From Polytrichum commune (taxonomy: Eukaryota; Streptophyta; Polytrichopsida; Polytrichales; Polytrichaceae): 64,000 nucleotides of DNA. Under the pieces are notes generated by a model. It made no database searches, was not told the DNA's origin, and saw only the letters and a list, made by a program, of their open reading frames with translations. The stretch lies in assembly GCA_950295325.1 (NCBI GenBank), contig OX485809.1:40455081-40519080 (forward strand), written 5' to 3'. Positions 7,249 to 36,913 of the stretch are shown piece after piece. Each line of letters starts with the position of its first letter. Within the stretch, counting starts at the first letter, position 1. Made by a program: the position numbers and the translations under genes.

Positions 7249-7758
7249 TTAAATTTATAGGGAGTACCATTTTGGAGTGTCCATATACATTTAGGAAAGT
7301 CTTCCCCTTGCTGCAATTAGCCAAATTGGTTTCTTAAGTGAAAGAGAAAACATTCTCCATACTCACACAAATCTGCAGACTCAGCTGATAGAGGGCAAAA
7401 ATGAAGGACCAGTGTTACAATTCTCCACCTGGATAGACGATTCGACCACCACACAACTTTTGGAGCTACCGCACCTGCTGCAAAACTCTACTGATGCTTA
7501 TAGCATCCACTTCGAACAGATACTAAACACACCCCTAGACTTGGCAGTTGGTAAGAATACGTACAGCTACACATACCAAGCAGAACCCTGTTCTCTGCAT
7601 GCTTCACAAAAGCCATCTGTGCTCTTGTTGCACAGTGTTTGACAGTATGATGTACATCTTGACGAGTACAAGACAAGTCAATGAGTGGAAACCACCTCAA
7701 ATCCTGGGATTTGGTGTGAAATTATTGTGCAAGAAACTGATGAAGTGGCTGATTTGGT
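7249..7758. other. Downstream flank of transporter gene
   Basis: 510 bp of intergenic sequence immediately 3' of the minus-strand transporter. Short open stretches around 7412-7642 lack recognisable protein features and I see no element in it. Confidence 0.5.
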
Positions 7759-10700
7759 TCAATGTGTGATTGAAAGGAGAAATATTCCAGCAAGCACAAC
7801 GATGTCTGCGGCCCAGAAGGTGACCAACGCATTACCACTCAGTTCCTCAAAGTAGAGCATCCCCCAAATCCCAGCTATGATGATGCCACATTGGAAACTG
7901 CACAAACAAGTGCCACAGCTCAGTGATACAAGTGTATAAGAATTTCTGAACACATTGCACGTTTAAAAAAACCTCCATCCTCATGAGAAAGAAGGTTTAA
8001 GTTGACAAGGTAGACTGAACTCACAGAGGATAAGCCACTGAGTAGCCGACATAGAAGATGGCCATGATGCTCAGTATGTTACCTGAAGAAAGCAAAGCAT
8101 GCCTGATTTTGTGAGTAAGCAGTACCAACCCATTTCAAATGAAACCTCTGCAACTTCACACAACAGCCTGAAGGAGGTGATCATGAAATCAGTGTTGGGA
8201 ACACCTACTCACCCACATTCCATACAATGCCGGAGAGCATCCCAGGGACAGCTGCAACCTGGGCAGCGAAGTCAGGGATCTCACATGATCCCGAGATGTA
8301 TGGTAGCGCCGTCGCAATTGGCGTAAAAATTGCCACAGCAATTCCAAATGATGGCAAGAATGCATTTCCCTGGCAAGGAAGTTTTTCATTTCCTTATACA
8401 TTCATGGGCAGATCATTGGAATTTGTTGATAGAATCACAATACCAAGTTGTCGACAAAACCATGAAAGCACATCATGAGATTCTAATAAATAAACTCTCA
8501 CCTGAGCACCACCGGGTGCCTGGATAGCTGGTATCTGCAAGTGAGTCACCCAAGTATCAGAAACACAATAGAACAAGGAGCATATCCAATAGCAAAGCTT
8601 CCCAAACATGTGCATGAATCAAATTCCAAGATTGCATTATCTACTGCATCATCAATGACCATCGTACCATAACTAATCCGCCCAGTACTCCAGCAAGGAC
8701 TGCTGAGAAAACACCAGCTGGAAAGCTTCGTGAAGCAGCAGGCTCTCCTGTCAATACCTGCATATAATATAGGTGAAGTAAAACGTCATGGGTGTCAGAA
8801 AATGATACAGTAGAGTTCACTTCAAGTAATTTGGCAATGACGCCCTACCAGTGCAGAGAGCATTGTGCGAATCTGTCCACCTCACAGATGGCAAAGAAGG
8901 GGTGGGGGAGGTGATTGCATGAGAAAATCATGGATCTCACATTTTTGTGTTTTTCAGCCCACTTGCTGTTCTCTCCAACGTTTGAAGGCCTGCGGTGTTG
9001 AACCCAGCCCGCAAAGGAAGGCTGCAAAACCACTGGGCTCTAAAGGCTTATAACCCTTGCTCTAAAAACGTGTCGACCCCGGAAATTGTTATGTGAACAC
9101 AAAGCAGATTAACCAGCTCATGGCGGAATCACATTGTTACACAAGTGCTAGGCTGTAGGGGGATAAGTGTGATCTTCACTAGTACCTGAGATTGAATGAG
9201 CGACTGCGTGTGCTCATCATCATCATAGGCATCTTGAGGATTCCAACCCATGTGGCCTGCCAATGCAACTCCCACTGCCAACCCAGGAACATAAGAGCAA
9301 AACTGGGTCAAATACTTCTCAAGATGAGCTTAATACATGCAGAGGTTCATTTCTCAATTTCTCCCTATTTATGCAGTGGTATGTTTCACTTCTGATTATA
9401 AATCACTATACAAACCATGCCCAACAAAGGTGTGAAAACGTGTCCAAATTGTGGTCAATTGCGCAGTGAAGAGAGTGAATACCAATGCCAATAATGGTGA
9501 TTAAAATGGAAAGTCCTGCGAAGAAAAAGCTCTTTGTGGCACCCTCCACCACTTCTCGAGCCACAAATGAAACTGCGATTGACACACTTATATCAGGAAA
9601 GCGTTGAAGGTATTAATGTACCAGGTGGAGTAATTTTCATCTCAAGGAGTAAGAAAATGAGGATAAGCACTATCTAACATCCATAACCTTCACTCTCTTC
9701 AATTCAAGAGGTGAAGAACTGAGATCTATGTGATTATTTGATGCAAAATTTTCTCACAATTTGTAACTTTCCCAATTCAACCCTCCACCTCAGAGCTAAC
9801 TTGGGATATAATGCAGTAGTCTGAGCTTCAGAGACTTCTTACCCAGTCCTGCAACTCCAGCCCAAATGCCATACGCAACTGCAAACCAAGCCACCAAGAA
9901 AAACCCCTTCAATAAAGCATTAAGGTTAGGGTGATTGGAACAAATTCAGTCATAGAGAAAGCACTGACTCATGCCAAAAATGACTTAACAAATCGATGAG
10001 CATCCTGGCAATTCCATACAAGCCATAGAATCACTACACCATTAAACAGATTGATTCAAGATGTGAGACTTTAGCTATCAACAACACAGAACTGAAGGAA
10101 CTAGGAAAAGGTGACCAACGCCCCACCTTGCAATCTTGTATAGAATTTCTCCCCCAAGGAGATGAGAAGGTTACACCCATCACTTTTGAAGGTTACTTTT
10201 ATTGTAACAATTGTATTGAGAGCTGTGTAGATCACCTGAGACACCGAGAAGCCGAACTGCCCTGAAGACATTGATGAAGGACAGAACGAAGAATAGGCCA
10301 CTGAGAATCCCCTCCAAAGCAAACACAAATCTGAACTTGACCAGCACCAGGAAGCTGCTAACCACCACTCCCAAGCTGCTCCACATGAAAGGTCACTTCA
10401 TCAGGCACACCAACAATCCCCGACGAAGATCTCAATCTGCAACGAACTCCTAAATTTCCAACTCGTGCATTAATCTGTTTTTACAATTTGCATACTCTGC
10501 TCTGTGAAGAAGAACGTCGTCACTTCCTGGCGAAAAGCATTGGAGACTACTCCAAAGTGAGCAAGTCCTAGCACGTGGAGAAACACTTTGTATACTAAAA
10601 TAGTTTGGTCAAAAACTTTAACCTAAAATGACAGCCCCACGGGATTTCCAACAGGGAGTGCACAGAGAGGTTGAAACCGCTTTGAATAAGATGTCTATGC

Positions 10701-24259: not shown

Positions 24260-24510
24260 ATTTCTTTGTTCGTTGTTGTCCTACGTCCAACGTCGTCCTG
24301 CGCTGTCATTAATTCATTCGACGTCGTCTTACGCTATCATTCATCCCTTCCGGGTCGTCTTACGTTGTCTTTCATTCATTTGACGTCGTCCTACACTGTC
24401 ATTCATCCCTTCGACGTTGTCTTTCGCTGTCTTTCATCCATTCGGCGTCGTCTTACACTGTCATTCATCCCTTCAACGTGGTCTTTCGTTGTCCTTCATT
24501 CATTGTCTAA
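24260..24510. repeat. Minisatellite of about 36 bp
   Basis: Imperfect head-to-tail repeats alternate CATTCATTCGACGTCGTC with TACGCTGTCATTCATCCC, about six units. One plus-strand frame stays open through it but the translation is just the repeat. Confidence 0.65.
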
Positions 24511-24754
24511 ATTTCTTCATACTAACTAATTAATCTAAATCTAATTTCTATTTATTGACTTCCTTTCTACTTAGGCCACAAATGTTAATCCAACCGCGAG
24601 CGGTTTGATTACTTCACGTGGGTAAATAATAACATGTTTCTAAAAGATAAAAACTACTTGAGAAGGTTCTACGCACAACCGCGTAGTAACACCTTCTCTA
24701 TATCCGCCTATAGATTATTCATGTTTTATCACTAGCTCAATTTGGGATAGCACC

Positions 24755-26415: not shown

Positions 26416-26547
26416 TAAGGTAGATGAGGCTAATTCGGTTAGCCTCCTTAATTGGACACTTATATTTGGCTCGTTATCGGTAGTATAATTGCTTTAATTT
26501 GGTGGGTGAGTAGTACATGGTGCTTTAATTTCCGCCTTGAAGATATT

Positions 26548-26830
26548 CCCTAACATTACCCAACCCAACAGTCATAATTGCATTCCGGTTCTCGAGGCTC
26601 GACAGAGGGGTGTCAGGGGTACTATGTGGGCAACCTGCTCCCAGGCCGGGCCAGCGCCCCAGCATGCAGCCCCGTGCGCCACACTGGCACCGGTTGCCCC
26701 TGTCTCCACGCTGGCACCGGTGCCACGCTGTCTCCCAGTTGCAACGTGTCGCCGGCCGCGCCACGTCCCCATGCCCATCCTCGAGGGTCGCCCATGCTAT
26801 GGCCTCGGGCGCGCCATGGCCTTCAACCAC
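26548..26830 (+). repeat. MULE left terminal inverted repeat
   Basis: GC-rich and complementary to the right end. It contains two copies of a roughly 27-bp unit around CTGGCACCGGTTGCCCC; the right end carries about two more units, so the TIRs differ in length by about 50 bp. Confidence 0.85.
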
Positions 26831-28344
26831 CCATTCATTCAGCCACCTGTTGTGTGTAACCTGCTGCTGCGATGGAGACTCGAAGCTTTTGCCGCAAATT
26901 CTTCTTTGTTTAGGGTACATGCGATTCGAAGGTGATGCTGCTTGCAGGGAAGTTGGTGGTGGTGCTGCTGATCGCACCCAAACTGCGGCTTTTCGAAGAG
27001 CGTGTAACAATCAAGGTGAGTTTGGCCACTTCGAATTCCAAACCCCCGCTTCCCTGTCATTGCAACTTTTGAGTGCGCCGCAAGTTGAATGTGTTTTTGC
27101 AACTTTTGTTTGAGCCGCATGTTGATGATGTGTGCGTTTAGGGATCTGATGTTTTGCTTTAGGCCACCCACTCAGTGTACTTTGTTTTGGGCTTTTTTTG
27201 GGTTTAGGCCAGTCATGTTACACAAGGCATAAATGCATTGTGTATATTGTCATTGCCGCAATCACATACACGTCAATATGATTGTGTGCTCATGTTTTGC
27301 TTTGTTGCCAGGCAGGAGCGACGCCGACCACCAGGGTGCCGCACAAGATTCCTAGCTGGTTTAGGAGCGCAACGTCGAAGGCACGTGGTTACAAGGACCA
27401 TCGAACATCCAAGCATCACGTGGCATAATGTAACATGCCTTTCCTATCTTTATGTTGCAGTTTTCCCTTATTTACCTTTTCTATATGGCAATGTTTTGTG
27501 TTTGGCTAGGGTTTGTTAGGCAGAGTTTCTGGTCTGCTTGTTAGTGCAGTGCTTGTGGTCTGCAAAGTTCAGATCTGTGGCAATCGATCGACCAAATGTT
27601 GTTAGGGGTGTAGTTAGTCTCCGAAGTTAGTCTCCTACGGGTTAGGGTTTGGTGCGGCATGGGTTGTCGCTGTCGCCACGTTGTTTGGGGTGGTCTTCTG
27701 AATGTGACCAACATCTCTATCGCCATGGCCATCTAGTACCATTAAACTTACAGACTCCAGATCTGTGGCAATCGATCGCCCTAAACCTGTTAGGGGCGAC
27801 GTTAGTCTCCGAGTTCAGAAGTCAAGTACTGCAGGTCTACTCTGTGTGCTTCGCGTGTGAGTGCTTCCGAGTCTGCAATGTGCAGAGGTTTAGGGTCATG
27901 AGGTCCAGAGCAGATCTTGCTGCTTTGCTATGCTATGTTGTGCTCTGTGTGGGCGAATCTTACCTGCAAAAATTTTGAGCTTCGAAGGGGTTTAGGGGTG
28001 GGCTGGTAGTTGGAGCGGCCGTTGTTTTTCCACGCAGCCTTGGCCAAGGTTGTGAGGGAGAGTCGGAGAAGGTGAGGAGTTTGAGTCTACCGTGGTGGTC
28101 TTACTTCGTGCTGGTTTAGGGTTTCTGCGGAGGCTTACTTTGAAGGAGTCTTTAGGGTTGGGGAGGTTCACTTGGGGCTGTCAAGGAGGTCGGCAAGGAG
28201 AGGAGTTTGGGGAAGCAGGAATCAGGGTTCAGCTGAGTTCCATCCGACCATAGCATTCTAGTACTCGGGAGCGGGAGATTGCTGAACATTGTGAAGGAGG
28301 CACAGAAGCCGGGGAGATTGGTCAGGGTTTACAAGGAACTGCTT
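26831..28344. other. MULE 5' non-coding region
   Basis: No reliable coding frame. It holds two TGTAACATG motifs (27214-27222 reverse, 27429-27437) and a direct repeat of about 50 bp around GATCTGTGGCAATCGATCG (27572 and 27760). It may contain leader exons of the plus-strand gene. Confidence 0.5.
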
Positions 28345-28391
28345 GGGTAATGTTAGGGAATCCAATTAGGGTAATGTTAGGGTAATGTTAG
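28345..28391 (+). repeat. Internal copies of the MULE terminal tip
   Basis: GGGTAATGTTAG occurs three times (28345-28356, 28369-28380, 28380-28391). It is the exact reverse complement of the left-end tip (CTAACATTACCC), just upstream of the plus-strand gene. Confidence 0.7.
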
Positions 28392-28660
28392 ACAATAATG
28401 TTAGAGCTGCTTCAGCAATGCGCTTGGCATGAAGGCAGAACAGTTTACGGTCAGGAGACTTCAAAGTCACAAGAGTTCACAGTCAGGATAGTTTAGGGGC
28501 AGCATACATCATGTTGGATGTCACAGCACGCAGTCAGAGCAAGGGAATATGAATCTGCAATGACTGCTGCTGATTTTAGTATTGTTTGTAGTGATGTTTA
28601 GGTAAATCATACAGAAGGTTTAACAAAATTTCCTTGGCGCATATTCTGAGTTTGTTGGCC

Positions 28661-31600
28661 ATGGCCGTTGGGGCAGTTGTTCCCCAGGGACACAACTATC
28701 AACACAAGCGCACCTTCATGTCTCTTCCCTGCGCCTCAAACTGCCACCCCAATTCCTTCATGATGGCGCCTCAGTATGCTCTGTTTCGTGCCATTGACCT
28801 CCATTGTGTTGTGCAGACTATGGAAGCCGCTGCAGAGGCAGCGTTTCGTGAAGTGGATGAGGTCACATATTTTGTGAACAGAGACTCGCAAGGTTGGGTG
28901 CAGCAGACTGTCAAGAGGCGGGTGTACATCGAGCTCAAGCTCGAATGTACACGCAATCGATGTCGAGATGGGCATAAGTCGAGGGACGTCTGGTTGTGTG
29001 TCTACTGCAGGTCATATTTCCCAAGCAAGTTGCGCTTGACGGATCATAGGGTGGGGGGTTGCCCATGTGGACCCGTTGACCCAAATGGCGCAAAGTTGGA
29101 GCTCCCGGTCTACCCCAAACTCAAGACAGCAAAGCAAGGTAAAGACCTGAAATCAGCAATCGAACGAGGTGAGCGTTCGGTTTGGGACAATTTGCAAGAT
29201 AATTCAATGTGGCTCGAGCTAAACCCAGAGCTAATGGAGGTAACGTACCCTCCCGCTGGAGCGAGAGTGCAGGTGCGGCGGTTCATGGAGCGCTCCATCG
29301 ACCGATTGAGAGCTTCACATCCAAGGCCGGAGGGTGGGTCGCAATCGGCCCCTAGAGCAGATCGGTCTCCCATACGACGTACCCCACCACCCCCCCTGGA
29401 AGAGGTTGTGGACGTAGGGGATGACGCCACCGATGAGGGGGAACCTCCACTTTCTCGGCCCAAGAAACGAAGTCACGCACGGATGGAGGAGGGCCATCGG
29501 GTTTTCACCTCCACCCGCCAATGGAAGTCTGTGCCAAGGAGACACCACCCGACTCCGCCTCCACAACCTGCCCAACCTGCACCTGCACCGCCTCCCCACC
29601 CCATTAGTGTGAAGCCAATCGCTTCTCGCAGCCCAACCCCAGAGAGGAGGATCATCTTGGCTCCTCCTTCGCCCATTCCACAGGCTGCCCCTACGCCACC
29701 TGTTACCCCTGTTCCCCCCATGCAGGCCGCAAGAGGTGAGCCTGATATTGCAAGTCCTGTTCCCCCCATGCAGGCCTCAAGAAGTGAGCCTGATATTGCA
29801 ACGGTGTTGAAGAAGGAGCGGCAATTCTTCTATGTGCAAGCAGCAGCTGCAGCCCGTGGATCTGTGAGGATGGAAGTCCCCAAACCAGCGTTGAGGCCCC
29901 CAATTCAACCCCCAAGCTTGTTTCATTTAATACCATGTGGTTTGTTGAAATTTGACCTCGAGTGCGGCGACTACCATGCGTTTCAGGAGGAGATTGACAA
30001 TTGGAGGAATGACCCGGCGTATATGGATCGGTTGTTCGCTGCCTATGGTAGATTTTCCTGGCACAAGCATCAGGTAAATGTTCTGTCTTCTCCTAACCTG
30101 GCGCATTGGCTTCAAAGTATATGCGTTGTAACATGCTTCAGGCTATTGTACATGGAAATTTTGAATCTGAAATGGGGTTGTGGTATGGTTTAGGGTGGCC
30201 ACGGTAGTTTGAGCCAGGAAATCAGCAAGTATAGGGCCCTGTAAACTGAATTCTGCCTGAGCTAAGCTTTCAATCAACGTTCACTAGCATTCAAGTAGAT
30301 TTCGTGCTTGCTTATGGTCTTCTAAGATAATGGTCTGTCACACAGCACATGGCTGTAGCATAATAAGTTTGTAACATGGGTTCTATATGTTGACGCAGGC
30401 TAAACCACATGTAACGCCACTAATCACAAAGATCGTCAACGTAGCAATGAGCCAGGTAGATGACGAGGCCGCGCTTCAGTCCGAGATTGGTGGCCTATGC
30501 CACTACGTCCAACACACAGTTGAGGCACGCGAGGTCAACAAACAACGCAAACTGTGGGAGGAAGAGCGGCATGCGAAGATTAACGACATCGTTTCAGGGG
30601 CCATGAAAGAGTGGGACAATGTGCACTACCCCCGTTTACTGGAGGCCACATGGGGGTGGCACCCTTTCTATGCCGCATTCGTTTCTAACCCTTTGAGCCA
30701 AAACTTCAGACCCTCCTACCCTTTGTACCATTCAGTCGTTGAGGGTTTAGGAGTGCATGCGTCCCTCTTGCAACAATCCCATGTTGAGAGAGCTTACCAT
30801 GTGCCTTGGTCCGTGCTTCTCCTTCGTTGCTTCTTGAAATTCTATATCATGGTGCCCCCTCCCCTCTCTCACCCACACAGCGGTGGATCTGTCGGCAACG
30901 TTACGGAGTGGTTGAAGCTCGCCGAAGAAAGCAATGGAGAGGGTGCACGTGCGTGGTATTTGGCCAGATGTTACTTGAAAAATGAGGGTTTCCTTGTGTT
31001 TGCAGATGCCAGGTTTGGGGATTCGTGGCAAGAGTAGGTTGCAGCCGTGGAAGCAGCCTGGATTGAAAAATCCCACACCTCAGTGGTGGGCAGATTTCCG
31101 TAGGTGGTGCAACTCCATCCAGTTCAGGGCATTGCAAGACATGGCGTTTCACTCCAAGTCAGAATGGCTGAACACTTGGGTGATTCGAGATCGTCCCAAC
31201 ACTCACTTACCCCCCCTTGCATGTTACGAGAGTTGGTTACATCATCGGGAAGACTTGGACATTGGCTATGTTCTTGGAAACCCAAGTATTTTGCTGACAT
31301 TTCAACCTTGTAACATATTAATGCACCGCCTTCAACATTCATGTACCCAGCCCCATTAAGCAATTGCATGTGTGCACTCCTTCGCAGATGTCCTCGTCCC
31401 CTCGTTGGAGCGACCCGAGTACATGGAGGAGCTTCGCAACATTGGCAACAACTTTGTGAAAGAGCGTTTGGAGCACTCGGAGGTGCTACCACCAGCCCAT
31501 GCCACACCAGCGCGGGAATCTACGTCTTGCGGCGCGTCCCAGCCATCGTCCCAGCCATGTCCTCAAAGCCCAGCGCATGTTGGGCCGGCATTTCACATCC

Positions 31601-31884
31601 CCATGACCCAGGGAAAGAGCCTGGAGGACTTGCCGAGCCAACTCGATTTTGAGTGGCAAGATTCCGTGTCCCCTAACTCTACAGCTGCCCATGTTACAGC
31701 ACGTAGTCTTGGCGGAGAGTTGGACGTCGTGGGCACTCCCCAGCCTCCCGTTGGAGCATGCGAGGTGGATGTAAACACATTTGGCCAGGTTTCCCAGATT
31801 GCCCGCGAGGCCTGCGTGGATGCCACCAGTCAGCCACATTCTGCCACGACTACGGATGGCATTTCGGATGCATCGCAGATTTAG
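28661..31884 (+). CDS. MULE accessory gene, unknown function (zinc-finger-like, proline-rich)
   Basis: Visible exons: 28661-30073, 30399-~30980, 31006-31309 (or a donor near 31290) and 31388-31884, with GTAAAT and GT donors and AG acceptors. The frame change between the second and third exon (30980-31006) is not resolved: either a splice site I cannot place or a one-base shift. The first exon has CTRNRC, then a CVYC..H..C finger-like cluster within the first ~140 residues. A long proline/arginine-rich linker follows, in which PPMQA(A/S)R(G/S)EPDIA is duplicated. Later exons are acidic and aromatic (EATWGWHPFYAAF, PTPQWWADFRRWC), and the C-terminal exon is Ser/Thr/Pro-rich. No known family was recognised. 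The location inside the MULE, opposite the transposase, suggests a transposition or anti-silencing factor; that is inference. The upstream start is uncertain; ATG 28661 is the first in frame. Confidence 0.55.
30127..30378 (+). promoter_or_regulatory. Two TGTAACATG motifs in the accessory-gene intron
   Basis: Exact 9-mers at 30127-30135 and 30370-30378 inside the 325-nt intron 30074-30398. They belong to the ten-member set spread over the MULE (27214r, 27429, 30127, 30370, 31690r, 32062, 32345, 32935, 34402, 35320r). Confidence 0.5.
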
Positions 31885-32413
31885 GCTTAGGTTACTGTTG
31901 CAATTGCTGCAAGAGACTTAGGGCATGCGTGTGTGTATTCCAGGTTGATGTTTAGCACGGGATGGAAGAAAAACTAAGGATAAGCTATGTTGCAAACTCT
32001 CTGCAAACCATCCAAGCTACGGGTCCCTTGTGATGTAATATGCCGATTGATGTGTAAAAGTTGTAACATGGAATAACATTTCCCCCTTTTATTCACCCAA
32101 TCCCAATACAAAATGCGTTGTTTGTGAAGCATGAAAAGATGTAAAGTATGTTGAAAATGTGTTGCGATGCTCCCGCAGAATGGGAACCCACGTGCACGTC
32201 TAACATGTACTTCCAACTCGCATACACATCAGAACATATACAACAGAACAGGTTACAAGACAAGTCATGCATCAGAACAAGTCATGCACGAAACAAAATG
32301 TGTTTATTAAGCCTACGTTTGAAACTGCGTGAACATATTGGCGATGTAACATGCATGCACACACTACGGGGCCCACACATGCCTGTAAACCTTAATCGGC
32401 CGCTGGTAAGCCT
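31885..32413. other. Intergenic space between convergent MULE genes
   Basis: Holds two TGTAACATG motifs (32062-32070, 32345-32353) and presumed 3' UTRs of the two convergent genes. No coding frame. Confidence 0.5.
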
Positions 32414-32737
32414 TTAGAGGTCCTTGCGGGGGGGGGGTGTGACGATTGGAGCTGGGGTAACCAGCTGCCGCACAACCTCTGCATGTCGGCGCCGCAGTCG
32501 AGCAGTCTGCGCCGGCGAGAGCAACTTTGGAACGGCGCCTGCTGTGGGTGTGAAGACCGAATCCGATCGCTTGGAGGTGTCCACATGGTGCTCTTTGGTG
32601 TAACGCCCTGGCGTCGTTGGAGGCGTGAAGAATTTGTCGTCGCTTGAACCATCTTCAATGGGTCCGATGGCATCGGGGCATCTACAAAGCCATTTCCAAA
32701 CAGACTGGCCAACTTGCGCGACGTCAAAACGGGCCAT
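32414..32737 (-). CDS. Small MULE-encoded protein, 107 aa, unknown
   Basis: The ATG lies in a CCATGG context at 32735-32737; the stop is near 32414. The protein begins MARFDVAQVGQSVWKWL, then a CRCPDAIG stretch, a Thr/Pro/Ser-rich centre, and an Arg-rich helix (AQTARLRRRHAEVVRQL) suited to nucleic-acid or protein contact. A TATA-like box on the same strand (32869-32875) lies about 130 bp upstream. It sits between the accessory gene and the transposase. No family recognised; it could also be a 3' exon of the transposase unit. Confidence 0.45.
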   Translation of the reverse strand: MARFDVAQVGQSVWKWLCRCPDAIGPIEDGSSDDKFFTPPTTPGRYTKEHHVDTSKRSDSVFTPTAGAVPKLLSPAQTARLRRRHAEVVRQLVTPAPIVTPPPRKDL

Positions 32738-32868
32738 GGATGCGGGAAAGTGGGGTATAAAAGAGGAGGGAGATGGTGGAGAGTGCTAATGCTAATGCAA
32801 CCTCTTGCCTAACCATACGAAACTAAAGCGGACGAATGGAACCTGTCTCCTTGAGGGCTGGTCGTGAC

Positions 32869-32875
32869 CTTATAT
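32869..32875 (-). promoter_or_regulatory. TATA-like box
   Basis: TATATAA on the minus strand in the context GGGTATATAAGGTC, about 130 bp before the small MULE gene. Another A+T box, TATAAAAG on the plus strand, lies near 32757. The call is by position and motif only. Confidence 0.35.
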
Positions 32876-32980
32876 ACCCTAGACCTCAACACGTGAACAC
32901 ACGTGTGGCATGTGTCGTAACGTGCATGCCATGTTGTAACATGCCAGTGTTACGACACGTGGTTGACTATCACTAGTTAG

Positions 32981-35787
32981 TTACCGACGTTTGGCCAGAA
33001 AGTCTTTCTTGCGCTTGAGGGACATGTTGCTGCCATCGTTGATGGGCAAGAAATGCAAGTCCACTTGGGAGGGCTCAACCAACCCATGTTTGATCTGAGC
33101 CAACAATGTCTGTTGCTTCCCCCTTACAACGTGCAGGTCTGCCAGGAGGTGCTTCAGCAGGAAAGTATCACCCGTGGCCGCGTCCAAGAACTGTGCTGCG
33201 AGGTTGCAAACATGGGATTCGATGTCTTCATGAGATGGTTGGACACGTTGGTTGCCACTAGCAAGAATGGGTGTGGAGGTGGGCACTGCTGATCCAGTGT
33301 CGTAACAAGCATCTGGAAAATGCACAACAGGGTCCAACATGTTACCACGGCCGCCCTCGGTTGTGCCTGCAAGGGACCCACAGTAACGTGTGATGGTTCC
33401 TTCGGCCAGGCTAGGATGGAGCATCATCAGTACTTTGATCTGATATTTGCAAATGTTTCCCTTGAGCGCCCACACGCAGTCACAACAACCCCACTCACAG
33501 TCTGGGTTGTACACAAAGTACCGTTTAGCTGAGTTTGTCTTGGAGGTTACAATGGCTGGGGCGTCATCCGCAATGGGGAGAGTGACACAACTGTCTGGAA
33601 TTTCTCTCGCTTTCAAAACCGCATTGATAACGAATTGCTCCTGTTTTAAGTTGGGGACGAACCCATGTTGTTTCCTCATTGGCCTGGTACCAATAGTGGG
33701 AGAGGATTTCCTCCGTCAACTCGTATATGACCCAGTCTAGACGACGTCCATACGCTCTTCCTTTTGAGGTACGCAAGGTGGCTTTAAGGTTAGAGTGGTA
33801 GCTATCGATTGCCGCATTTGTGTCCTGCCCAGCATAAGGCAGGTTACGATGCCCCACAATCCACATATTGGTCTTGTCAGCCCATTGTTTGTTGAAATAC
33901 GCCCAAAAATTGGTCACAATGGGGAAGCTATCCATGAGAGCGGAGAGTTGGCGAAGAGCCCAAGGCCCCATTTCATCTCCCTGGGGGCACTTTGTATCGT
34001 ACATAATACGACCCAATCCTTTCAGCACACCAGCCCGGATAGCATGGTCCTTAATTTTTGCCACCGCCTGTTTCAACCATGCACGACGAACATGCCAAAG
34101 GCAAAGAAAGACTTTCACTCCGGGCCATACTGACTGCAACCCTCCGATCTCAGCCTGCGCACAATCTATGATGAAAACATTCAGCATCCAATCCGATTGC
34201 ACTGACACCAATTTCGTCTTGAGCGCCGTCATCCATGGTTCAAGATCGGGTTGCTTGGAACTCGATGTAATAATGTATGTCACGGGCACTCCGTTCAGCC
34301 AGTCATCAAACATCATCAAGGTGTAGAGCGGAAACTGCAATAACAAGGAAAAATAATAACATTACATGCTGGGGGATGGTAGATGTTACAGATAACATCG
34401 TTGTAACATGGAATCTGGCAAAGCAAGTACCTCTAACAGTCTGTAACTTGAGAGTTCATGGAGCATGATAGCAACAAACCTTGTTTTCATTTGTTGCAAA
34501 TGTGGCATCAATGGAGACAGCCTTTTTATGTCCGTGCTTGACCATCATATCTTGTTGCCACGCAGTTTGGATACCTATCGTGAATGGAATGTTGTCGCGT
34601 GTAATAGCGCCGCGAACATGCACGCCAAATTCTTTGTAGTAGAAAACGAGTTGGGGATGTTCTTGCACCCACATGCGAACAAATTTTGCATCGTTGTTGT
34701 CGCGTTTGAAGATCTCTATTGCCAGGCGGTCAGCGACGTTACGGATGTCTTGGTCAGAAATGAAGAAGTCCCTTGTGAGCTCTTCCCCCCTTTCACACAC
34801 CTCAAGGAAGCGTTTCCTATGCTTTGCCATTATTTGCGGGATGGACAAACCCAAACGTAGATGAATCATGATGAATTCCCGAACATGCGGTGAGAGATGG
34901 CTAGAGAATCTGCTTTTATGGCCACTCTTTGTAACGCCATGGCAGAAGATTCCTTCCAAGTTGACATGTTGCATCTGATGGTACGTTACTTCTGCAATCG
35001 AGGGCTCAAGGTATAGTCGTTTGACAACAAAACCACATTGGCAACCCCTTCGTTGCCCAAATCCTCGCATCCTCGCAGACGTGCGAGGACCTAAGTGTCC
35101 CTTTCCATTTAGAACATATTTGCCCTTGGAGTCGAGTTTTCTTTTTTTCTGGTACATTTCCTTTGTAACAACTGGAATGTGCGAGGCATTGTCATTTGGC
35201 CCATACTGGCAGTGATACATGTGGCAGACAACAAGTGCGGCAAGGGAGTATCAGGCACCAAACGCCCATATAAGTTTTTGTGTTGTAACATTGCAACGGG
35301 GAAAATGGAATTGGAATTGCATGTTACAAACACACCTGATGATGTCAGAATAGCTATTCCAACGGGGGAATGCTAGTTTCCCTTGTATGTTCGATGGAGT
35401 GCCTTGGCAAACGAATTTGCAGGGAGCATCAGGGCGGGCCTCCTCACCTTTGAGAAAATCCTGCACTCTTGCCCAAGGTATGTACGCAACCGAAGTTGCT
35501 GCATGAGTCCTGGGGTCACTCCTCCTCCCTTTCAGGCGGATTTGCCTTGCCCACGATAGGTCACTGTGCATGAAGGCTCCCGCTTGAGGTCTCTGGACCA
35601 AACTGAGGAGCCGCTGAAACTCCCCTTTGTGTGCCTCCCGGTATGTAGACTCATAGGAGGGATCCACGGCCAACGGAGTGCGAAGTGTGCGTTCAGTGGC
35701 ATGGTCTCCATCTCGGATAACATCTAGTGCAGTTGACAATTCAGCACAGGATCCCGTTGACGTTGTCTTCTGGAGCACTTCGAGCAC
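32981..35787 (-). pseudogene. MULE transposase (DDE, SWIM zinc finger), interrupted
   Basis: Exon A (35787-34480) opens after a TAG acceptor and ends AACAAG|GTTTGT. Exon B (34334-32981) starts after TTGCAG, and both phases are 0. Exon A has a Cys/His-rich N-terminal zinc domain (CHMYHC..RGCQC..HQMQH) and the first catalytic Asp in SIDATFAT. Exon B has FIIDCAQAE with CLWHVRRAW, the second Asp region of MULE transposases, then TNAAIDSYHSNLK, then a SWIM-like CDC..CKYQ in which the usual His is Tyr. Breaks: an in-frame TGA at 35251-35253 (perhaps in an unannotated intron, since TGTAACATG lies there), and a one-base frame change near 33680, just before the ATGAGGAAACAAC stretch. Expected role: cut-and-paste transposition by binding the terminal repeats. 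Upstream exons beyond 35787 are likely. Confidence 0.75.
34402..34410 (+). promoter_or_regulatory. TGTAACATG motif in the transposase intron
   Basis: Exact 9-mer inside the 145-nt intron 34335-34479 of the transposase gene. Confidence 0.5.
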
Positions 35788-35989
35788 CTACAGCTGGTCG
35801 TGCATGTAACGACGTCCTAACCCAAGTGAGGAGTGACCAAAAAATGAGAAGCAGTGAGGAGAATCCTAAAGCTGGCACAAGGTGGGGAGTGACCAGAAAA
35901 TGGATAGGTTACAGTCAAACAGGCGCGATGGTGTACTGCAGATCTAATATCATATATGGAAAGCACAATGAGTGAGGGCGATTGTTGGG
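35788..35989. other. MULE region upstream of transposase exon A
   Basis: Contains a diverged direct repeat around GAGTGACCA(A/G)AAAATG (35830 and 35888). Probably promoter or leader exons of the transposase gene. Confidence 0.4.
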
Positions 35990-36240
35990 TTCGTCTGCGA
36001 GGATGCAATACAGGAGCAGATTTGCGTTGGGGTCACATCAGTGGCTGCAATAGATGAGCAGATGTGTGTTGGGTTCACATCATTACATGCAAGACAGGAG
36101 CAGATCTGCATTGTTGAGTGCAGATCTGATGAAAGCACAATGTCGACATATACCTTGTCATTACATGCAAGACAGGAGCAGATCTGCATTATTGAGTGCA
36201 GATCTGATGAAAGCACAATGATCTACTTGTCGACATATAC
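35990..36240. repeat. Subterminal tandem repeats of the MULE
   Basis: A unit of about 75 bp, with AAGACAGGAGCAGATCTGCA and GAGTGCAGATCTGATGAAAG, occurs twice in full (36090-36165, 36166-36240). Two shorter variants start near 36000. They lie 300-550 bp inside the right TIR. Confidence 0.65.
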
Positions 36241-36544
36241 CTTCAGTACAAGAAAAGGGAGAGGTCGCATCATTACATTCAAGAGAATCCAGTGCTACAG
36301 AAATGCAGATTGTTTAGTGAATGGGCATGTTGCGATTAATCAGAAGCATGAAAGCAAAGGAACCCCGAAAAGAAACTAGCAATGAGGTGATCTTGTCCTA
36401 AACCCTTGTGCGCATCATTGCTCAAGTGTATCACTCTCCATTGCAGCAAAATTTTGCAGTCTCCACAGAATGAGCAGGTTATAGACAAACATCATGAGTG
36501 GTTCATTGTATGTTTGAAAATACGCGCTCCCCGAGGGCGGCTGG

Positions 36545-36904
36545 ATGACCAGTAGGGATGGGGGTGTAGGCCATGGCCATACCGAGGCCCATGCCATGAT
36601 GAGGCGCAAGGGCATGGGCGACCCTCAAGGATGGGCATGGGGACGTGGCGCGGCCGGCGACACGTTGCAACTAGGAGACAGCGTGGCACCGGTGCCAGCG
36701 TGGAGACAGGGGCAACCGGTGCCAGCATGGAGGCAGGGGCGACCGGTGCCAGCGTGGGCGACGGCCAGCGTGGCGCACGGGGCTGCATGCTGGGGCGCCG
36801 GCCCGGCCTGGGAGTAGGTCGCCCACATAGTACCCCTGACACCCCTCTGTCGAGCCTCGAGAACCGGAATGCAATTATGACTGTTGGGTTGGGTAATATT
36901 AGGG
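36545..36904 (-). repeat. MULE right terminal inverted repeat
   Basis: Reverse complement of the left end, ending GGGTAATATTAGGG at 36904. It includes about four copies of the 24-27-bp unit around CTGGCACCGGT, which makes it longer than the left TIR. Confidence 0.85.
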
Positions 36905-36913
36905 GAAGATATT

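Follow-up and report, generated by a model that had tools for sequence, protein, structure and literature searches.

What does a 9-mer, TGTAACATG, that recurs ten times within a single transposon do there, and what reads it? The question is raised by a 64,000-nucleotide stretch of Polytrichum commune DNA (GenBank assembly GCA_950295325.1, contig OX485809.1, positions 40,455,081 to 40,519,080 of the forward strand; hereafter the window), which contains a Mutator-like element (MULE), here called copy W of family F1, with a transposase gene, an accessory gene and a small gene encoding 107 amino acids (the 107-aa gene). A preliminary description of the window had likened the repeats to the motifs of Arabidopsis VANDAL elements, which are bound by VANC proteins. 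We give about an even chance to the following answer: YGTAACVTG, the consensus of the repeats, would be an address tag of F1 that is read by the accessory protein to lift silencing of its own element. At the level of sequence, this reading is directly supported by family-wide enrichment of the motif, its concentration in non-coding DNA, selection on the sites, motifs specific to related clans, and a zinc finger that is nearly constant within and different between three clans.

The preliminary description had reported ten exact copies of TGTAACATG, and every coordinate and strand proved to be correct, with no eleventh copy in 64 kb. The ten copies are as follows:

27214..27222, minus strand, left non-coding region
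27429..27437, plus strand, left non-coding region
30127..30135, plus strand, accessory intron 1
30370..30378, plus strand, accessory intron 1
31690..31698, minus strand, accessory exon 3 (the sole coding copy in W)
32062..32070, plus strand, interval between the accessory and 107-aa genes
32345..32353, plus strand, interval between the accessory and 107-aa genes
32935..32943, plus strand, interval between the 107-aa gene and the transposase 3' end
34402..34410, plus strand, transposase intron 2
35320..35328, minus strand, immediately inside the donor of transposase intron 1, in a block that is invariant in all 16 copies of the family analyzed

The statements that most copies lie in introns or intergenic parts and that the motif is confined to the element also held: nine of the ten are non-coding, the copy at 31690 being the only one in an exon, and the remaining 53.4 kb of the window contains none. 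The chance expectation had been put at about 0.1; modeling the element as an order-2 Markov chain raises it slightly, to 0.23. In 100 dinucleotide shuffles of the whole window, the motif occurred 1.0 times on average and never more than 4 times. The copies in W are dispersed rather than in tandem, and their 20-base flanks are unrelated as judged by eye.

We then turn to the family as a whole. The genome (407.8 Mb in 64 contigs) was searched with a transposase exon (at least 147 matches) and accessory exon 1 (at least 90 matches), and among the matches listed the two pair at about three dozen places. A total of 15 paired sister copies were fetched, picked for completeness, two of which (H and O) had previously been seen as motif clusters. 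They are 79-91% identical to W in the transposase exon and 54-81% in accessory exon 1; the accessory gene thus diverges faster than the transposase. All 15 sisters carry 5 to 15 exact copies of the motif (B 5, D 11, E 9, F 15, G 10, H 12, I 7, J 6, K 7, L 6, M 9, N 9, O 8, P 9 and R 7, compared with 10 in W), amounting to 140 in the 172 kb of the 16 copies, versus 4.3 expected under the order-2 model and 3 for a reversed control. Each of the 16 copies is individually significant (largest Poisson p, 3e-6), and no 9-mer other than TGTAACATG occurs at least five times in every one of them; the runners-up, which are overlapping words, have a minimum of 3. All single-base variants taken together yield the consensus YGTAACVTG, graded as in a protein-binding site: T is preferred over C at position 1, GTAAC is nearly fixed, position 7 prefers A, then C, then G, position 8 is T, and position 9 is G more often than A. 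Nor is the motif equally frequent outside the family, so that neither of the two outcomes named as refuting in the preliminary description came about. Genome-wide (407.8 Mb), there are 2707 occurrences of the 10-mer TTGTAACATG and 1624 of its reversed control; the 172 kb of the 16 copies alone contain 82 of the former. The first 100 sites listed (contig C1, 0.29-14.57 Mb) form groups of at least three within 10 kb at two places only, 2.08 and 14.56 Mb, both of them F1 copies.

The sites are concentrated in non-coding DNA. When the 16 copies were split by trimmed exon models into coding and non-coding parts of nearly equal total length, 133 of the 140 exact sites were non-coding (1.58 per kb) and seven coding (0.08 per kb). 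The former are distributed over left leaders (26), right leaders (6), accessory introns (24), transposase introns (31) and the intervals between genes (46). The contrast is smaller for the relaxed consensus, with 214 non-coding (2.54 per kb) and 59 coding sites (0.67 per kb). Terminal inverted repeats (TIRs) were detected in W and in 11 of the 15 sister stretches, and by the same method none in H, I, K and L; they contain a single exact site in 10,214 bp, a total that includes inner repeats in O and R. Orientation varies by region: 15 plus and 16 minus in transposase introns, 21 plus and 15 minus between the accessory and 107-aa genes, and 23 plus and 1 minus in accessory introns. Tandem arrays with GTAAC occur in copies L, R and F among the seven copies scanned, and the array of copy L consists of 9.8 units of 29 bp with motif variants inside. 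The arrays of GTAAC-type variant units in copies L (L018, 5867-6151) and R (L027, 822-1629) resemble tandem VANC targets.

Comparison of copies points to selection on individual sites. All 16 copies have an unchanged CATGTTACAA in transposase intron 1; in intron 2, every copy has GTAACATG, eight at one position and eight at another. Four non-overlapping pairs of diverged copies provide 50 alignable non-coding YGTAACVTG sites, of which 24 are identical (W-B 5/9, M-P 9/16, F-G 5/12, H-I 5/13), compared with about 6.2 expected from random non-coding 9-mers, which are identical at 9-16% (binomial p about 1e-9 at 0.125). Further diverged pairs, which share members with these, gave 5/10 for W-D, 4/10 for B-E and 5/13 for G-H (controls 0.10, 0.09 and 0.10). 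Sites whose neighborhood could not be aligned were omitted (1 of 10 in W-B, 6 of 18 in F-G, 2 of 15 in H-I, none of 16 in M-P, 7 of 18 in F-N and 1 of 14 in G-H). Over all 11 pairs, including those discussed below, 66 of 132 sites are identical versus 37.9 expected.

If the motif is an address of F1, other MULE clans in the same genome might use other addresses. To look for them, ten more loci were selected solely because their transposases are similar (37-48% identical). None of the ten has the exact F1 motif, and there is one relaxed match, in L029. An enrichment search on the first six loci revealed the motif CARTGTCAC in clan F2 (9 sites in L030 and 17 in L031) and TGAAKGACA in clan F4 (13 in L033 and 10 in L034). 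Both were confirmed at loci outside the discovery set, namely L038 for F2 (9 sites) and L040 and L041 for F4 (13 and 8); L039, with 13 F4 sites, is a 99% copy of L033. Over all 26 loci, the F1, F2 and F4 motifs are nearly diagonal. The picture for clan F3 is blurred by an overlap between its repeats and the F2 motif. Outside its own clan, the F3 word AGTGTTMC occurs six times in L030, four times in L031, and four times in each of the F1 copies O and R; other counts are near expectation, save that L029 and L032 have two F2 sites apiece and copy P has two F4 sites, above the 0.2-0.4 expected. In the whole genome, GCAGTGTCAC was found 585 times versus 190 for the control, and the 100 sites listed (contig C1, to 54.75 Mb) include three groups within 10 kb: L038 (2.92 Mb), a 45% transposase match (41.95 Mb) and one with no known match (4.35 Mb).

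Clan F3 comprises L029 (1991-9300) and L032 (2186-9998), which are about 95% alike and seen from TIR to TIR. Each has 12 AGTGTTMC sites, dispersed and partly in tandem, and five of AGTGTCAC; four of the 12 sites per copy lie inside or beside TIRs, and several are tandem. Because there are only these two closely similar copies, with TIR and tandem sites and with AGTGTCAC in the same copies, AGTGTTMC is kept only as a lead for a fourth clan motif.

The candidate reader is the large accessory protein, although the 107-aa protein might also serve. Its exon 1 encodes a finger of the form C-X2-C-X12-H-X4-C, whose C, C, H and C ligands are present in all 16 F1 copies, and the finger region includes FPSKLRLTDH, or one change from it, in all 16. 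After the upstream ends of the other loci had been fetched, the finger could be read in two of three F2 loci (L031 and L038; FFVC..CG.N.FSNKMMLNRHRFIDGC) and in four of five F4 loci (L033, L034, L040 and L041; FSC..CKE.HKDKN.TSYHRMF.LC); the upstream part of L030 is all N, and that of L039 lies outside the fetched stretch. The finger is therefore nearly constant inside each clan and differs among F1, F2 and F4. The accessory genes have exon 2 sequence in common: a profile of F1 exon 2 matches those of F2 (L031, 3.8e-5) and F4 (L033, 1.8e-3). At its end (7674-8420), the accessory gene of L034 encodes Peptidase_C48, a Ulp1-like protease (4.6e-7). ORFs resembling an Ulp1-type tail were also seen by eye in L040, L041 and L031. 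In the F1 accessory exons, no Pfam domain scored above the cut-off and there was no Peptidase_C48; sub-threshold matches included zf-C2H2_4, zf-MYST, HSA (0.0041) and others. Profiles of Protein Data Bank structures gave a weak zinc-finger match to ZNF423 (E 0.58) and weak matches to ribosomal L20 (E 0.08-0.88), which were not used.

The pattern matches that reported for VANC and VANDALs, which is why we propose that the accessory protein binds the motif and counters silencing. According to PMC5735166 and PMC10398659, VANDALs combine a family-specific, mainly non-coding motif with an accessory protein whose divergence outpaces that of the transposase; the former source gives YAGTATTAY for VANC21 and AGTTGTCC/AGTTGTAC for VANC6, located in non-coding DNA of the elements and different between families. 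In F1, the accessory protein would bind the dozen or so tags in introns, leaders and intergenic DNA of its element through the N-terminal C2HC finger and perhaps other parts. Tag-bound DNA would be kept or made open (anti-silencing), and only the element and its kin would be activated; sister clans would follow the same scheme with another tag and another finger. It is by inference that the binding is ascribed to the accessory protein instead of a host factor, the 107-aa protein or the transposase, and loss of silencing as its outcome is suggested by the analogy with VANC. Sites kept in diverged copies but not in near-identical ones indicate that selection maintained them while lineages were active, and the absence of excess in the close pairs may be read as decay of dead copies.

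The preliminary description had suggested an independent version of the VANC system. At the level of sequence the likeness stood up, with a short family-specific motif that is non-coding, selected and different between clans, and a fast-diverging accessory gene. As for the protein itself, DUF1985 (PF09331) had no match in the accessory exons or in the genome, although the genome profile search was also silent in control genomes. Independence from VANC is likely. Ulp1 domains accompany DUF1985 in other plant MULEs. Together with the Ulp1-like domain of F4, this makes a deep common origin with VANC possible. Since neither DUF1985 nor degenerate TIRs were found, F1 should not be filed as VANC. 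A bolder reading, to which we assign somewhat less than an even chance, is a new self-recognition system in which a zinc-finger reader, with an Ulp1-like tail in at least one clan, would recognize a clan-specific tag in order to lift silencing. Reader and tag would have diversified in step into at least three specificities, and F3 elements, with no accessory gene of their own, would profit through a related tag.

Several observations weigh against the accessory protein as reader of a selected tag. The clans differ in transposase too, so that the correlation of finger and motif does not single out the accessory protein, and a single zinc finger usually reads 3-4 bp. The F1 exon 1 profile matches the F2 finger weakly (0.011), the exon 3 profile has no match in the related-clan loci, and an AlphaFold model of the finger region made with no alignment was uninformative (pLDDT 34) and was not used. 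Neither F3 copy (L029, L032) has an accessory gene detectable by F1 profiles or by F2 and F4 accessory queries, which is the strongest finding against the proposal and lowers our confidence both in the tag-and-reader scheme and in the new-system reading; the 10 kb of L030 that can be read carry the F2 motif but no accessory match. For F3 and L030, either the reader would act in trans or the gene would have been lost. Among the sites, seven exact and 59 relaxed ones fall in coding DNA, and the density of relaxed sites in TIRs (11 in 10.2 kb, ~1.1 per kb) is still about half that in non-coding DNA (~2.5 per kb). Three near-identical pairs show no excess conservation (D-E 10/13, I-J 9/13 and O-R 7/12; controls 0.75, 0.80 and 0.57), and the pair F-N shows little (2/11 versus a control of 0.13).

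Among the other explanations, binding by the element's own transposase to internal or subterminal sites, for transposition or self-regulation, is unlikely, though the likeliest of them. The clans also have different transposases, the F3 elements, in which no accessory gene was found, have dispersed repeats that in part lie in TIRs, the relaxed F1 matches just mentioned do occur in TIRs, and maize MURA is reported in PMC10398659 to lower TIR methylation. Exact F1 sites, however, nearly avoid TIRs and fill interior introns and intergenic DNA, and this scarcity argues against the transposase as reader. A host transcription-factor or insulator site, exploited for expression of the element, would fit the leader location of 32 of the 140 exact sites and the transcription factor-like look of the consensus. 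We regard it as rather improbable: clans sharing one host use different motifs, which argues against a host factor, sites in introns (55) and between genes (46) are as frequent as leader sites, and clustering among the listed genome sites was limited to the two F1 copies noted above.

An RNA-level signal in element transcripts (for splicing, stability or recognition by PUF-type proteins) might explain why 23 of the 24 exact sites in accessory introns are in the sense orientation and why the intron-1 site adjoins the donor; moreover, UGUAACAU resembles PUF sites. Mixed orientation elsewhere disfavors an RNA motif, since 15 of the 31 exact sites in transposase introns are antisense and the interval between the accessory and 107-aa genes has both orientations, and we consider it improbable. 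A branch-point or splice signal was rejected: the intron-1 site is near the donor, yet those of intron 2 are antisense, and many others lie between genes. There is very little room for the motif being a neutral relic, multiplied by internal duplication and shared by descent, even though many sites are at homologous places across copies, some tandem arrays contain motif variants, and close pairs lack excess conservation. Flanks differ among the window copies, transposase intron 2 has its site at alternative places and yet in all 16 copies, and F2 and F4 repeat the pattern with other motifs. In addition, site conservation in diverged pairs is far above that of neighboring non-coding DNA (24/50 versus about 6.2), a test that largely refutes the relic explanation and by which neutral sharing by descent was rejected for diverged copies.

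Compared with known systems, F1 resembles VANC/VANDAL21 (Hi) and VANDAL6, as described in PMC5735166, in being a MULE with a transposase and a fast-evolving accessory protein, a short non-coding motif, and related families with different motifs. It differs in having a candidate reader with a C2HC finger and no DUF1985 found, clear TIRs and a target-site duplication (TSD) instead of absent or degenerate TIRs, a motif that is mostly dispersed rather than tandem, and a motif that is stable despite the divergence of accessory exon 1. Maize MuDR, which consists of two convergent genes, mudrA and mudrB, is likewise a TIR MULE with a 9-bp TSD and a convergent pair. PMC6446971 describes mudrB as being of unknown function. 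Unlike MuDR, F1 has a dispersed internal motif and a finger-bearing accessory gene. TnpA of maize Spm binds a short repeated motif at subterminal sites. This transposon-encoded protein is tied to methylation loss in PMC10398659. Spm belongs to another superfamily, and exact F1 sites fill the interior instead. MULEs with Ulp1-like genes (Kaonashi and others) are matched by the Peptidase_C48 end of the F4 accessory gene; F1 accessory exons lack this domain, and F4 adds an N-terminal finger and a dispersed motif. Among the matches listed in the open-access literature, outside which most subscription papers lie, sequence-specific anti-silencing by MULEs was reported only for Arabidopsis.

VANC is a well-worked case of a transposon undoing its own silencing in a sequence-specific manner. 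If the new-system reading is correct, the moss elements would represent a second, separately built solution to the same problem, which would suggest that sequence-specific anti-silencing is a strategy that recurs. A finger-to-motif code might then be readable from sequence: since finger and motif vary together between clans, they would provide natural pairs for how a small protein gains a new address, and possibly a tool to direct demethylation.

The structure of the element in the window is as follows:

26548..36904 (10,357 bp), MULE copy W of family F1, delimited by inverted terminal arms, ends and a 9-bp duplication
26539..26547, left TSD, GAAGATATT
36905..36913, right TSD, GAAGATATT
26548..26797, left TIR, with no exact and no relaxed motif copy
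36612..36904, right TIR, with no exact and no relaxed motif copy
28661..30072, plus strand, accessory exon 1, an ORF with the C2HC zinc finger at aa 113-134 followed by a proline-rich part; ends from inspection of splice signals
30400..31280, plus strand, accessory exon 2, with approximate ends; in W, disrupted by a change of frame and by a stop codon in frame near 31034
31387..31884, plus strand, accessory exon 3, start set by inspection
32414..32737, minus strand, 107-aa gene, 47-79% identical in all 15 fetched sister copies
32984..34334, minus strand, transposase exon C; in W, a frame change at the junction of two matches, about 33645-33680
34480..35217, minus strand, transposase exon B, ends by inspection
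35335..35787, minus strand, transposase exon A, start provisional

The inverted arms are 94-96% complementary and end in CCCTAACATTACCC and CCCTAATATTACCC, the general form being CCCTAA(C/T)ATTACCC. TIRs and a TSD of 8-11 bp are expected of MULEs, the 9-bp TSD here is identical on both flanks, and the transposase contains the MULE domain PF10551 (Pfam, 7.3e-7, passing its cut-off). The accessory gene (plus strand, three exons) is convergent with the transposase gene (minus strand), and the 107-aa gene (minus strand) lies between them. Copy W is broken by the stop and frame change in accessory exon 2 and by the frame change in transposase exon C; the exon 2 reading frame is open in several sisters, such as B, I, J, M and P.

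Other repeats were also observed. Upstream of the accessory gene, at 28345-28391 of the window, the TIR-terminal CTAACATTACCC recurs as a degenerate 11-bp tandem repeat, GGGTAATGTTA, which has TAACAT in common with the motif. Every one of the 16 F1 copies contains the telobox-like CCCTAAAC, with 96 occurrences in total versus 4.6 expected; in the six copies inspected it lies mainly left of the accessory gene, for example at 26900-28500 of the window. CCCTAAA-type words also rank high in some other loci. Just beyond the edge of the element, at 24279-24535 of the window, there is a minisatellite of 31-bp units.

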